The notes beneath the pieces are model-generated. The model searched no databases. It was not told where the DNA came from and worked only from the letters and a program-made list of their open reading frames with translations. This document shows positions 48,183 through 52,803 of a stretch of 64,000 nt of DNA, piece by piece. The stretch comes from Georgenia subflava (lineage in GTDB: Bacteria; Actinomycetota; Actinomycetes; Actinomycetales; Actinomycetaceae): the NCBI RefSeq assembly GCF_009193155.1, contig NZ_VUKD01000001.1, positions 558,001 to 622,000 on the forward strand. Direction: 5' to 3'. Each line of letters opens with the position of its first letter. Position 1 is the first letter of the stretch. Made by a program: the position numbers and the translations under genes.

Positions 48183-48256
<74 letters not shown>

Positions 48257-48268
48257 CTCGGTGACATG

Positions 48269-48304
48269 AGGCCCCTGGCCTGCGGCGACGCGGACCAGGG
48301 GCCT
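48269..48304 (+). terminator. tRNA-Pro terminator
   Basis: 10-bp perfect stem AGGCCCCTGG/CCAGGGGCCT with a 16-nt loop, 12 bases after the tRNA. Confidence 0.75.
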
Positions 48305-48344
48305 TACCGTTCGCCTGCTCCGCACGCGAGGCGGTGGCCGAAAA

Positions 48345-48635
48345 TCACCCCAGAATCACCCCTGCCCCTGGACGGGCCGGTCGGGCACGTCGCGCCGAGA
48401 CGCCGTTGAGCAGTTGCAGCGCCGAGCGGTCGTCGGAGTCGCCGAGGTGGTGCAGGTAGCAAGCGGTGATCTCGATCGAGCCGTGCCCGAGCCACGCCTG
48501 AACGGTCGTGAGGGGAACGCCGCGCAGGATCCAACGTTGCCGCAGGTCGTGGAGCGTGCGGCCGCGCGGGCCTCGGCTGAGCATGTAGGCAGCGCCCGAC
48601 GCTGCGCGGATGTGGCCGCGCCCCGCGAGCCCGCC
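48345..48635 (-). pseudogene. tyrosine recombinase (integrase) C-terminal remnant
   Basis: The C-terminal catalytic part of a phage-type integrase: LHDLRQRWILRGVPL, then VQAWLGHGSIEITACYLHHLGD, containing the HxxR, GH and Tyr positions. It ends GVILG. The usual HT-A-SW segment after HDLR is missing, and reading upstream meets a stop near 48636, so the core-binding domain and first catalytic Arg are absent. It points at tRNA-Pro 90 bases away, which marks an old integration event. The remaining bases up to 48774 hold no gene. Confidence 0.75.
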
Positions 48636-48774
48636 TCAGTTGAACTGAGCGGGAGCGTTGGATCGCGTGGTACCGCTTTTGCGGACTCACAGAGCGTCTA
48701 ATGCGGGACGCGCTATCCGTCACCACCCTAGAATCCTGGTCAGGGACACCTCAGAGTAGAGAGAAGCACGTCTG

Positions 48775-50034
48775 ATGGGACGCAAGCGCGGATTTCTTGC
48801 CGAGATTCAGCACCAAGCAGCTGTCGCTCAACGGCAGAAGCAACACGCCACGGCCGCCGCAGAACGGGATCGGCAACGCGCCCGGAAGGAAGCCGAACGT
48901 GCAAAGGCCGCGGCTGTCCGGGCACAGCAAGCCGCGGCTCGAGCCGATGCAAGGACGCAAGCTGCAGCTGAGAAGGAAGCCAAGCGTCTCCACATCGAAG
49001 CCATGGAGTCGATTGCCGCGTCCGCCAACGCTGAACTCACCGGCCAACTCGCCGACATCGACAGCATCCTCACTTTCACCCTTGACGTTGACGACTACGT
49101 CGACCTCGAAAAGCTACGCAAGCACGCCGATCACACGCCGTTTCGCTCCGCGCACCAGGAACCGAGGCCGCAGCCTCCTACGATCGTTGCCCCGCCCGAG
49201 CCGGTCTACATCGAGCCTGACGCCCCGTCGGGGTTGTTCGGGCGGAAGAAGAAGCATGCAGTTGCCATCGAGGAAGCCCAGGCGGCCCACGCCGCCGCAC
49301 ACGCCGCCTGGCAGGCTGAGGTTGCCGCCACTCCTCGGAGGCAGCTCGAACAACTTGCTGCCCATTCCGAAGCGGAGGCCGAAAGAGCCCGACTGCTGGC
49401 AATTGACCAGGCCGCCTACGCTGAGGAGTGTGCGCAGCGGCAACAACAAGTTGACGATGACAACGCCCAACTTGACGCGCTCATCATTGGCCTCGCGGGA
49501 GGGAGAGCCGATGCAGTAGACGAGTACATCGGGATCGTCCTGGGCAACTCCGTCTACCCGGACGGCATAGAAATCGGCTATGAGTACGAATACGACGAAG
49601 CCGCCCGTGAACTACGCATAGACCTTGAGCTCCCTAGTCCGGACCAGATTCCCACGACCAGGGGGTTCAAGTACGTTCGTGCCCGCGATGAAATTTCCGA
49701 ATCAGCTCAGCCGCTGAAGGAGCAGAAGGACCGGTATGCCGGCCTGCTACACAACACGGCCTTGAGGACCCTTCACGAGGTGTTCGAAGCTGACCGGAAC
49801 CGTCATGTCGAAACCATCTCTCTGGCCGCTGGAACCAATCACATCGATCCCGCCACTGGCACTGACACCTTCACCCCACTCCTAGCCGTTGCCGTGGCGC
49901 GGGAAGACTTTGAGGGCATTGACCTGTACCGGGTCACCCCTGCTGAAACCCTCAAGCATTTCGGGGCAGCTCTGTCTAAGGACCCGCGCGGCCTGACCGC
50001 CATCAGCACTACGCTCGGCGTGCGTTCACACTAA
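48775..50034 (+). CDS. coiled-coil protein of the tRNA-Pro island, 419 aa
   Basis: Residues 1-75 are a charged Ala/Arg/Glu coiled coil (QRARKEAERAKAAAVRAQQA). About 78-115 form a conserved-looking block (IDSILTFTLDVDDYVDLEKL). A Pro-rich linker with GLFGRKKKHAVAIEEA leads to a second coiled coil to about 235. The C-terminal 180 residues look globular (DEYIGIVLGNSVYPDGIEIG through LRTLHEVFEADRNR). From memory this matches an N-terminal region seen in some actinobacterial 'restriction system' (Mrr-linked) proteins, but no nuclease domain is present here. Base composition is visibly lower in GC than the neighbours. It is followed after 66 bases by a GIY-YIG gene. Confidence 0.8.
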   Translation: MGRKRGFLAEIQHQAAVAQRQKQHATAAAERDRQRARKEAERAKAAAVRAQQAAARADARTQAAAEKEAKRLHIEAMESIAASANAELTGQLADIDSILTFTLDVDDYVDLEKLRKHADHTPFRSAHQEPRPQPPTIVAPPEPVYIEPDAPSGLFGRKKKHAVAIEEAQAAHAAAHAAWQAEVAATPRRQLEQLAAHSEAEAERARLLAIDQAAYAEECAQRQQQVDDDNAQLDALIIGLAGGRADAVDEYIGIVLGNSVYPDGIEIGYEYEYDEAARELRIDLELPSPDQIPTTRGFKYVRARDEISESAQPLKEQKDRYAGLLHNTALRTLHEVFEADRNRHVETISLAAGTNHIDPATGTDTFTPLLAVAVAREDFEGIDLYRVTPAETLKHFGAALSKDPRGLTAISTTLGVRSH

Positions 50035-50100
50035 CGCCCCGCGGAGTATCGCCAACGTCGAGGTTGCAGGCAGCTAGGAGGAAGAGGGGACCATACATCC

Positions 50101-51621
50101 ATGATCGGCTTCAGATTCAATACGCCTCCAGGCTGGCCACCTGCTCCAGTCGGGTGGACCCCGGCTTCTGACTGGCAACCGGACCCGGCGTGGCCTCCAG
50201 CGCCCAACGGCTGGAGTTTCTGGGTCCCCGACAATGACAGCAACGAAGAATCCGCACAGACGGGTGCACCTAAGGCCGAGGTCGAGCAAGGCCCAGAAGT
50301 GCAAGACGACAACACAATTCCAATTGCGAGCCCGCATGGCAGACCTGTCTCTGATACCGATGAAGCAGGCCCCGTCAACTCAGCCCAAGAGGCAGAGATC
50401 AGCCGACTACGGAGCGAGATAGCGGAACTGCGAACGCGCGAGCACCAACTCCGCGACCAACTGGACGATGAACGCGACCGACCCGCTCATCACCAAGTCC
50501 GAGCAGGGGCCAGCGCCGAAGAGGACAAGAAACTCAGGTCCCAGATTGCCGACCTGCGCAACGAACTCGTCGAACTCAACGATGCAGTCCTCCTTCAGCA
50601 GGTCGGCATCTACGAGTACCATCATCCGCTCGAAACCGCAGCCGCGTATAAGGAACGCCTTGCCGACCTTCGCGAACGCATCCGCGGCGCCGTCCGTGAC
50701 AAGGCAGCTATCGAAGCCTCGGAGCGATTCTCCTACAACAACTCCCTAGCTCAGGGGCGTAAGATGGTATCCGATTTCTCCAGGCTTATGCTGCGTGCCT
50801 ACAACGCAGAGGCCGACAATTGCGTTCGTTCTCTCCGTGCGGGCACAGCCTCATCCGCCGTAAAACGACTCACTACCTCGGCCGATACGATCGCCAAACT
50901 CGGCACCATGATGGGGTTGAAGGTGTCTGAGACGTACCACGCGTTGCGGATCGAAGAAATTGAACTCGTCTCCGACCACATGATGAAGATTCAGGAGGAG
51001 CGTGAGGCAGCCCGCGAAGAACGCGAGCGACTCCGTGAGGAACGCCGGGCCGAACAAGAACTTGCCGCCGAGCGCGAACGCCTCGAGAAGGAGCGCTCCC
51101 ACTATCTGAACGCACTAGAGGCATTGCGTCGACAGGGCAAGGCAGACGATTACGAAGACCTTGAGCGACGCCTCGCCGGCATCGAGCGAGCCATTGCCGA
51201 TAACGACTACCGGGCCGCGAACATTCGTGCGGGCTACGTCTACGTCATATCAAACATCGGCACGTTTGGTGGTCACGTCGTCAAGATCGGCATGACACGG
51301 AGACTCGACCCAATGGACCGGGTTCGAGAACTTGGAGATGCTTCAGTCCCGTTCCCCTTCGACGTGCATGCCCTGTACTTCTCTGAGGATGCCGTCACCC
51401 TGGAGACTGAACTTCACAAGGAGTTCGCCGCCGGACGCGTGAACCAGGTAAACCCACGCCGAGAGTTCTTCTTCGCCACTCCCGAACAGGTTCGAGACGC
51501 GCTCACTAAAAGGGTGGGAAATCTGCTCGAATACGTCGATCAACCCGAAGCAACGCAATACCACCAATCCCAGTCTTCATGGCCAATAGCGGATTCGATC
51601 GGCCCCGCTAAAGGATACTGA
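50101..51621 (+). CDS. DUF4041 protein with C-terminal GIY-YIG (T5orf172/MUG113) domain
   Basis: A 506-residue protein. The Trp/Pro-rich N-terminus (NTPPGWPPAPVGW, then WPPAPNGWSFW) resembles short tandem motifs on some actinobacterial membrane or effector proteins. Coiled coil follows at about 95-140, and a DUF4041-like helical core at about 160-360, ending in a long charged coil. The GIY-YIG-type nuclease domain at about 378-475 includes YVYVISNIGTFGGHVVKIGMTR, RVRELGDASVPFPF and ETELHKEF. Phage and defence islands often carry DUF4041/T5orf172 proteins. AGGAGG lies about 19 bases upstream, rather far, with GAGGGG nearer. Confidence 0.85.
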   Translation: MIGFRFNTPPGWPPAPVGWTPASDWQPDPAWPPAPNGWSFWVPDNDSNEESAQTGAPKAEVEQGPEVQDDNTIPIASPHGRPVSDTDEAGPVNSAQEAEISRLRSEIAELRTREHQLRDQLDDERDRPAHHQVRAGASAEEDKKLRSQIADLRNELVELNDAVLLQQVGIYEYHHPLETAAAYKERLADLRERIRGAVRDKAAIEASERFSYNNSLAQGRKMVSDFSRLMLRAYNAEADNCVRSLRAGTASSAVKRLTTSADTIAKLGTMMGLKVSETYHALRIEEIELVSDHMMKIQEEREAAREERERLREERRAEQELAAERERLEKERSHYLNALEALRRQGKADDYEDLERRLAGIERAIADNDYRAANIRAGYVYVISNIGTFGGHVVKIGMTRRLDPMDRVRELGDASVPFPFDVHALYFSEDAVTLETELHKEFAAGRVNQVNPRREFFFATPEQVRDALTKRVGNLLEYVDQPEATQYHQSQSSWPIADSIGPAKGY

Positions 51622-51686
51622 GCCGCCTCCCTGCGCGCCGAGCACCGAGGATCACGTCGACCGTTTTATGGTGGTGGCCTGCGAAT

Positions 51687-52133
51687 TCAGGCGAGGGCGG
51701 TGACCAGCAGCGTGAAGGCGGCGATGAGGACTGCTACGCGGACGTAGTGGAAACGGTCCCAGCGGCTCATCTGCTCCTTCCAGTCCTCGGGCCGGCTCTC
51801 GGTCGTCCACGTCTTCCCCCGGTTGTTGATCGGGACGAGCAGGAGGAGCGACATGACCACGCTGAGGATCAGCAGCGCGCCGGCGACGACGACGAGGCGC
51901 GCGCCGTCTTGGTGCCACCCGCCGACGGCCCACACCCCGCTCAGGGCCAGCGAGCCGATGTACCAGAACGGCATGACGACACCGAGCATGCGGCCTCCGT
52001 GGCTTCTGCCACGCTGGCTGCTGTCACTGGGGAGCGCGTCGAGAATCGGGTTGACGACGAAGGCGACGGAAAACTCCACCCCTGCGAGCAGGCCGACGAC
52101 CACGGTGGTGGCGACCTCAAGTGCGTCAAGCAT
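51687..52133 (-). CDS. DUF1772 membrane protein
   Basis: A 148-residue, four-helix protein of the DUF1772 (anthrone oxygenase-like) family. VVGLLAGVEFSVAFVVNPIL begins it, FWYIGSLALSGVWAVGGW is central, and WDRFHYVRVAVLIAAF ends it, with the conserved NxR-containing INNRGKTW. GGAGGAG lies before the ATG at 52133. A palindrome TCTAGCGCCGCTAGA lies just upstream and is shared with the divergent TetR gene, so it is probably repressed by that regulator. Confidence 0.87.
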   Translation of the reverse strand: MLDALEVATTVVVGLLAGVEFSVAFVVNPILDALPSDSSQRGRSHGGRMLGVVMPFWYIGSLALSGVWAVGGWHQDGARLVVVAGALLILSVVMSLLLLVPINNRGKTWTTESRPEDWKEQMSRWDRFHYVRVAVLIAAFTLLVTALA

Positions 52134-52150
52134 GATGACTCCTCCTGGAA

Positions 52151-52165
52151 TCTAGCGCCGCTAGA
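52151..52165. promoter_or_regulatory. TetR operator O1
   Basis: Perfect 15-base palindrome TCTAGCGCCGCTAGA, 18 bases upstream of the DUF1772 ATG. Confidence 0.75.
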
Positions 52166-52201
52166 TGACGCGGCAACGCTAGTACTGCCCTCGCTCGGTT
52201 G

Positions 52202-52216
52202 TCTAGCGATGCTAGG
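52202..52216. promoter_or_regulatory. TetR operator O2
   Basis: TCTAGCGATGCTAGG, the same palindrome with one end mismatch. It overlaps the tetR -10 box (52213-52218), as expected for autorepression. Confidence 0.75.
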
Positions 52217-52218
52217 AT
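52213..52218 (+). promoter_or_regulatory. -10 box of tetR (leaderless)
   Basis: TAGGAT with a 6-base gap to the ATG at 52225. It overlaps operator O2. Confidence 0.65.
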
Positions 52219-52224
52219 CGACTC

Positions 52225-52803
52225 ATGTCCGTGCAGGCACGCAAGGAGCGAGAGCGGGTTGTCCGCGAGCGCCTCATTGTGACGACGGCCCGCGAGATCG
52301 CCGAGCAGCAGGGCTGGGACGCGGTCACCACCCGCCGTCTCGCCGAGCGCATCGAGTACAGCCAGCCCGTCCTCTACAGTCACTTCCGCGGTAAGCGCGA
52401 GATCATCGGCGCCGTCGCCCTTGAGGGCGCCGCCGAGCTGGCGGCGGCGCTGCGAGCCGGAGCCTCCTCCGCGGACGGCCGTCGCACCCGGGTCCTCACC
52501 CTCGCCGGCACCTACCTCGAGTTCGCTGAGCGCAACCCGGCCGTCTATGACGCCATGTTCCGGCTCGACGGCGGTCTGGCGTTCGCGAACGAGAACACCC
52601 CGGAGCCACTGAAGGACGCCTTCGCCGCCCTGCTGGAGACGCTCGGCGAGGTCGCTGGGGACAGCGTCCATCCGGCACTGTTCACCGAGGTGTTCTGGGC
52701 GGCCCTGCACGGGCTGGCCACCCTCACCCGGGCGGGACGGCTGCCGCCGGAGGACACCCAACGGAGGGTGACACTACTTGTGGACCGGCTCGCCATGGTC
52801 TGA
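52225..52803 (+). CDS. TetR-family transcriptional repressor
   Basis: 192 residues. The N-terminal HTH is TTAREIAEQQGWDAVTTRRL, then IEYSQPVLYSHFRGKREII. The C-terminal ligand domain (TetR_C, WHG type) has FAERNPAVYDAMFRLDGGLAF and EVFWAALHGLATLTRAGRLP. It is divergent from the DUF1772 gene. Two matching palindromes lie in the 91-base gap. A small lipophilic inducer is the usual theme, but the ligand is unknown. Confidence 0.93.
   Translation: MSVQARKERERVVRERLIVTTAREIAEQQGWDAVTTRRLAERIEYSQPVLYSHFRGKREIIGAVALEGAAELAAALRAGASSADGRRTRVLTLAGTYLEFAERNPAVYDAMFRLDGGLAFANENTPEPLKDAFAALLETLGEVAGDSVHPALFTEVFWAALHGLATLTRAGRLPPEDTQRRVTLLVDRLAMV

Follow-up and report, generated by a model that had tools for sequence, protein, structure and literature searches.

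A nuclease-less restriction-enzyme module linked to a SNIPE-type nuclease in a small tRNA-Pro cassette of Georgenia subflava

In the 64-kb stretch of the Georgenia subflava genome that we analysed (contig NZ_VUKD01000001.1, positions 558,001 to 622,000; here called the window), two adjacent genes, A and B, lie beside a tRNA-Pro gene. B has the sequence of a nuclease of the anti-phage family PD-Lambda-1/SNIPE, A corresponds to the N-terminal module of type IV-like restriction enzymes, and the tight linkage of such a nuclease-less A to B is new here. On the basis of the homology of B, its intact nuclease positions, the linkage of the two genes across genomes, the grouping of A-linked B proteins in one clade, the foreign composition of the pair and the unoccupied site in congeners, we lean modestly toward the view that A and B form a mobile two-component anti-phage variant of SNIPE, with A as the guide or licensing factor of B.

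Results

B is a homologue of SNIPE

B matched two PADLOC PD-Lambda-1 models with 366 and 339 bits (together residues 97-492; the better match covers residues 100-492 and profile positions 70-471 of 491) and phrog_1847 with 382 bits, and is by these matches a homologue of PD-Lambda-1/SNIPE, an established anti-phage nuclease family. SNIPE, which is identical with PD-Lambda-1, is reported to be a membrane-bound E. coli nuclease that cuts the DNA of phages while it is being injected (Saxton et al., Nature 2026, PMC13190303); according to the same text its DUF4041 domain promotes DNA binding, the DUF4041 region binds DNA and phage injection proteins, and Glu414 is essential, the E414A change abolishing defence. 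Like SNIPE, B has DUF4041 followed by a GIY-YIG-type nuclease domain (Table 1), the latter recognised by MUG113 (66.5 bits, cut-off 22.3) and T5orf172 (55.3 bits, cut-off 20), and Glu435 of B aligns with E414. The GIY-YIG domain had been proposed in an earlier, sequence-only reading of the window, and its nuclease positions proved intact, with G378, Y381, G397, R400, R401, E435, H439 and N448 identical in all 140 aligned rows.

Unlike the founder of the family, which has a transmembrane anchor, B showed no transmembrane-like stretch as judged by hydropathy only (Kyte-Doolittle, 19-residue window, maximum 1.05), and by the same measure no transmembrane helix was seen in the A-linked B proteins. 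Instead, the first 45 residues of B form a Trp/Pro-rich repeat, situated at the end where E. coli SNIPE carries its transmembrane helix. This module had no Pfam match, and B is its sole match in this genome. Seven A-linked B proteins are without it (L080, where the loss was judged by eye, L084, L104, L106, L120, L129 and G241/L008), and therefore either A may suffice there or the module is not needed. The module also occurs in other proteins, N-terminally in L059 and C-terminally in L060, and may be a portable, possibly localising domain.

A is the module that precedes an Mrr nuclease

By eye, A consists of two Ala/Arg/Glu-rich stretches poor in Pro and Gly, which are likely coiled coils, with a Pro-rich linker between them, followed by a conserved C-terminal part that ends in a GVR tail. 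It matched the PADLOC profile mREase_IV PDLC03663 with 93.3 bits (residues 22-411, profile positions 24-381 of 544). A matched no Pfam or NCBIfam family; across the A family, individual Pfam families were matched weakly and in at most 3 of 87 members. Sequence searches of the PDB gave no convincing relative, the five weak matches (E 0.044-3.8) being mostly to coiled-coil or fibrous proteins, and in neither the Pfam nor the PDB searches was a known modification-reading domain found in A.

Longer relatives of A, of 517-929 residues, were found in 21 loci. Mrr_cat was present in seven of the eight that we scanned, one of the seven also carrying TerD, and the eighth (L024) had no Pfam match. Seven longer relatives share 27-41% identity with A over their N-terminal parts, and A ends at the point where Mrr_cat starts in the longer proteins. 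Given that A matches only positions 24-381 of the mREase_IV profile and that its longer relatives carry Mrr_cat, we regard A as the module that lies ahead of the Mrr nuclease, which agrees with the earlier suggestion that A resembles the N-terminal part of restriction-nuclease proteins. A shares this N-terminal module with the mREase_IV/Mrr enzymes but stops before Mrr_cat and has a GVR tail of its own; Pfam found no Mrr_cat in A, which in this respect differs from that class of enzymes. The tail is common to standalone A proteins (G in 79 of 80, R in 78 of 80), and at that place it is absent from L011, the one longer copy in which this can be read, since the other six of the seven in alignment A2 were trimmed by hand at the module end.

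Residues R331, H334, E335, E338, D340 and R341 of A are invariant or nearly so, R341 being replaced by P in six of the seven longer copies, and the R331-R341 cluster is a possible candidate for an active or binding site.

The gene pair recurs across genomes

A profile built from nine standalone A proteins, the nine best matches in a class sample of 394 genomes, was used to scan a genome collection and yielded 149 confirmed relatives of A; our loci figures cover the best 80 of these. In 80 of these 80, the gene immediately downstream is B, in the same orientation, a co-occurrence far beyond chance. With starts picked by script, the two genes overlap by 4 bases in 46 pairs and by 1 base in 8. 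Among the 80, B is frame-shifted in two and A is split in one. The hosts are mainly Actinomycetota, together with Pseudomonadota isolates (Paracoccus, Breoghania and Aliidiomarina) and metagenome bins labelled Nitrospira, Verrucomicrobiales, Acidobacteria and others. The Candidatus Peribacteraceae label of L098 may belong to a misplaced metagenome contig, since its B groups with near-identical Nitrospira copies.

Within the class sample, standalone A occurred in nine genomes and B adjoined it in eight; in the ninth (G143, L009) standalone A is followed by the start of B only and then by a DDE transposase gene. B itself was matched in 62 of the 394 genomes at a loose cut-off, many of these matches being to the Trp-rich module alone. 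None of the 21 longer A relatives had B in flanks of up to 1.5 kb, and two longer relatives matched in the order sample by a search with an A-TerD protein (described below), those of G495 and G544, likewise had no B in their flanks.

Searching with B instead, we obtained a match at E <= 1e-40 in 38 of 396 genomes of the order. Thirty of these loci were examined: standalone A stood beside B in four, all four in the A-linked clade described below, and the other 26 had no A upstream. We call a B solo when no A lies within flanks of about 1.5 kb or none is annotated nearby; by this usage L195, one of the 26, was scored solo despite an A-TerD gene downstream, and the solo status of L191 is weak because only 340 bases upstream of the match were available.

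We found no match to A in phage records. Relatives of A were present in 16 plasmid records; the Kocuria record that we inspected holds a standalone A with B, and most of the other plasmid relatives bear the annotation restriction endonuclease. A single viral contig with a standalone A was found, L141; its A is in two pieces in different frames, and the adjoining B is open up to the end of the fetched stretch. Solo B relatives lie near integrase genes in Mycobacterium phage Mask (L161) and Corynebacterium phage Poushou (L162), where they are annotated as hypothetical or DUF4041.

A crude GC-frame script found 239 neighbouring open reading frames (ORFs) around the pairs, of which 115 were scanned with no control set. 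Pfam matched 130 families in these 115, none in more than two members, and PADLOC matched 164 families, none in more than two members among the first 25 families listed. These scans did not reveal a clustering of the pairs in defence islands. AbiEi, PDC-S09, mad2 and HTH_VI were each matched in two neighbours, and IetS, QatA, QatD, PDC-S30 and a type II methyltransferase were among those matched in one.

A-linked B proteins form one clade

In a tree of B, the 89 A-linked rows stand on one side of a branch and the 51 others, which include the E. coli phage-borne PD-Lambda-1, on the other, with a Shimodaira-Hasegawa-like approximate likelihood ratio test (SH-aLRT) value of 95. The tree was made from a core of 346 columns and 140 rows (139 different) by a quick search with no bootstrap. 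The 89 rows are 88 distinct proteins, L170 repeating L110; L067/L004 and L100/L006 each represent a single genome, which was entered once, L140 was entered by the longer of its two pieces, and L126 (frame-shifted B) and L057 (fragment) were left out. When the A labels were shuffled over the tree, none of 500 shuffles matched the observed grouping, the shuffled labels needing 41.6 changes on average.

The clade is also marked by residues of B. N368 is found in 99% of A-linked rows vs none of the others, and W494 and P495 of the C-terminal tail in 97% and 93% vs 0% and 2%; the corresponding figures are 98% vs 2% for F458, 96% vs none for M273, 98% vs 8% for L216 and 91% vs 6% for H174. The distances among A proteins follow those among B proteins (r = 0.862 over 77 pairs, equalled in none of 999 permutations), L089, L126 and L140 having been left out of this comparison.

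TerD-linked forms

A further arrangement was seen in G637 (L197), in which the gene downstream of a TerD-DUF4041-GIY-YIG gene joins the A module to TerD, with no Mrr; the A-TerD protein scored 168 bits against mREase_IV and 83 bits against Pfam TerD. The A and SNIPE modules are thus again adjacent, each with a Pfam TerD, but the gene order is reversed and TerD stands in place of the Trp-rich module. The B of G637 lies on a long branch outside the A-linked clade, which suggests that the link between A and SNIPE arose again or persists in another form. In the 396 genomes of the order, no other full-length match to this A-TerD protein was found; a partial match in G494 was rejected, as inspection revealed no A module.

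By Pfam, TerD is fused to the N-terminus of SNIPE-type nucleases in L047, L188, L195 and L196, and DUF2510 is fused ahead of solo SNIPE-type nucleases in L044, L045, L046, L048, L049 and L056. L031 has the order A-Mrr-TerD.

The pair is a foreign cassette at tRNA-Pro

The sequence-only reading had placed a tRNA-Pro, an integrase remnant and the two genes here (Table 1), A and B in the same direction with a gap of 66 bases and lower in GC than their flanks, and ARAGORN, the ORFs, Pfam and the composition bear this out, the remnant being weak and partial. This last is a stop-free piece that matches the C-terminal end of Phage_integrase only (21 bits, E 3e-4, profile positions 130-168 of 172), below the curated cut-off of 27.1. 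The GC content and the GC content at third codon positions (GC3) are 0.620 and 0.674 for A and 0.589 and 0.641 for B, vs 0.67-0.74 and 0.88-0.97 for six flanking genes and a GC of 0.723 for the window. Among 625 sliding windows of 1500 bases across the 64 kb, none is below B in GC, and the minimum starts at 50101.

Table 1. Features of the A-B locus, in window coordinates
Feature	Position	Strand	Basis or remark
tRNA-Pro (cgg)	48183-48257	+	ARAGORN; presumed integration site
Tyrosine recombinase C-terminal fragment (integrase remnant), 96 residues	48345-48635	-	Translation; Phage_integrase PF00589 match
Gene A, 419 residues	48775-50034	+	ORF; PADLOC mREase_IV PDLC03663
Gene B, 506 residues, SNIPE/PD-Lambda-1-type nuclease	50101-51621	+	PADLOC, phrog_1847, Pfam
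Trp/Pro-rich N-terminal module of B	50119-50229	+	Sequence inspection; comparison of N-termini
DUF4041 domain of B	50782-50949	+	PF13250, residues 228-283, 62.1 bits, cut-off 27
GIY-YIG-type nuclease domain of B	51229-51510	+	Pfam MUG113, T5orf172
Codon of Glu435 of B	51403-51405	+	Aligned with SNIPE catalytic E414
Trp494-Pro495 of B C-terminal tail	51580-51585	+	Mark of the A-linked clade

The order of a phosphoesterase gene followed by tRNA-Pro is preserved in eight of eight congeners, and in the 8.5 kb examined from each, neither A nor B was present at the site; a search of the eight congener genomes for A gave no match at E <= 0.001. A and B are therefore ruled out as host core genes, none of the eight having either gene at the site and none having A elsewhere, and with its low GC3 and a site unoccupied in congeners the pair is a small imported cassette at tRNA-Pro. 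A search of the window for a repeat of the tRNA 3' end that could mark an attachment site (att) found none, with up to 3 mismatches allowed. A tRNA lies within about 1.3 kb in 9 of the 80 A-B pairs.

To the right of B (51687-52803) are two divergent genes, one DUF1772/anthrone-oxygenase-like and one for a TetR regulator. Beyond the tRNA, seven of the eight congeners have a PhoX and/or NUDIX gene at varying spacing in the 8.5 kb read, and no match to the TetR or DUF1772-like genes was found in these stretches; the insert may therefore extend to PhoX, and the two genes perhaps belong to it.

Discussion

SNIPE is reported to spare host DNA partly through membrane tethering; once its transmembrane part is removed, it is toxic and cuts host DNA, and 34% of 474 SNIPE homologues have no predicted transmembrane domain (PMC13190303). 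B departs from the founder in two features, the anchor and the number of genes, the founder being a single gene whereas here A lies directly upstream, as in all of the best 80 loci, and the locus is therefore best called a two-gene variant rather than SNIPE in its published form. The available text of PMC13190303 describes no partner gene of SNIPE, and we found no description of a two-gene SNIPE or of A in the titles and abstract openings of the literature searched.

If A and B are a two-component system, the GIY-YIG domain of B would, by homology with E. coli SNIPE, cut incoming phage DNA, and its DUF4041 region would bind DNA and phage injection proteins as that of SNIPE does. A would be a dedicated partner encoded directly upstream, probably co-transcribed with B, acting on B in trans as an adaptor and perhaps in a physical complex with it. 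A would use its likely coiled coils and its conserved C-terminal part to bring B to entering DNA or license it there, and would so replace the job of the transmembrane anchor of E. coli SNIPE. The same module would act in cis on the Mrr nucleases of type IV-like restriction enzymes. Given that it sits ahead of Mrr elsewhere and before B here, the simplest role common to both settings would be to aim or license a nuclease. A broader proposal, plausible but held more tentatively, is that A is a transferable nuclease-guiding module, serving Mrr in cis and SNIPE in trans, and that A and B make up a separate two-component type of SNIPE in which the partner rather than a membrane anchor tells entering phage DNA from that of the host.

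Several observations weigh against a guiding partnership. Of the 20 solo actinobacterial B proteins examined, 18 are also without a transmembrane-like stretch, so that a missing anchor alone cannot account for A. Relatives of B often occur without A (51 rows of the tree), and the B family as a whole thus does not require it. Joint inheritance of the two genes would by itself make the A and B distances correlate, and the count of 80 in 80 covers only the best 80 matches of a profile that was itself built on nine standalone A sequences. In the order sample, G686 (L218) has a standalone-type A cut by the contig end, where B is not assessable.

The main rival, which we think less probable though worth serious attention, is that A restrains B, as an antitoxin-like inhibitor encoded first that holds an unanchored nuclease away from host DNA and releases it on a signal from a phage. 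The toxicity of SNIPE freed of its transmembrane part (PMC13190303), the lack of a transmembrane helix in A-linked B and the position of A before B, with ends that often overlap, are consistent with such a role, as are the damaged genomic pairs, in which B is the broken gene in three (L126, L140 and G143) and A in one (L089). However, very few damaged pairs were seen, and the broken gene of the viral contig L141 is A; moreover, solo B proteins with neither a transmembrane stretch nor A are common, and the fusion of the A module to Mrr elsewhere fits a targeting or regulatory domain at least equally well. Restraint may also be part of the same job as guidance.

It is rather unlikely that A reads modified DNA and targets B to phages whose DNA contains modified bases. 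Among named profiles, A is closest to PADLOC mREase_IV (93 bits), and its longer relatives carry Mrr_cat, both of which speak for this reading, but the label 'type IV methyl-directed' is an annotation, and the domain searches turned up no modification reader in A. Still less probable is that B works by itself in the manner of SNIPE, A being a separate defence protein that acts on another target after loss of Mrr: B keeps its nuclease positions and has many solo relatives, but the linkage of A to B in all of the best 80 loci and the clade residues N368 and W494-P495 argue otherwise. That A and B are unrelated and merely share a mobile element, as the tRNA and integrase fragment at the island and the nine pairs near a tRNA might suggest, is already strongly disfavoured by the order and strand kept in those 80 loci, by the single clade of B and by the absence of any Pfam family shared by more than two of the 115 sampled neighbours.

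Returning to the two-component reading, the sequence-only account had envisaged a split sensor/nuclease cassette. A linked pair of a nuclease and a putative sensor was indeed found, but one enzyme simply split in two is ruled out, as the longer relatives of A carry Mrr and not GIY-YIG. B alone is a known anti-phage system, SNIPE/PD-Lambda-1, and it would thus be a nuclease of another fold that acquired a partner module. That account had named three outcomes that would count against it, and we saw none of them: the genes co-occur elsewhere, their composition is not host-like, and they are not core genes of close relatives.

How such a nuclease may be controlled or aimed by other means can be tested cleanly in a widespread branch of SNIPE that has a second gene and no visible transmembrane helix. 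Annotation tools would label B as single-gene PD-Lambda-1, and A is the second component to seek beside it. This branch also provides a first functional context for the so far unnamed module at the N-terminus of many proteins that carry the annotation 'restriction endonuclease'.

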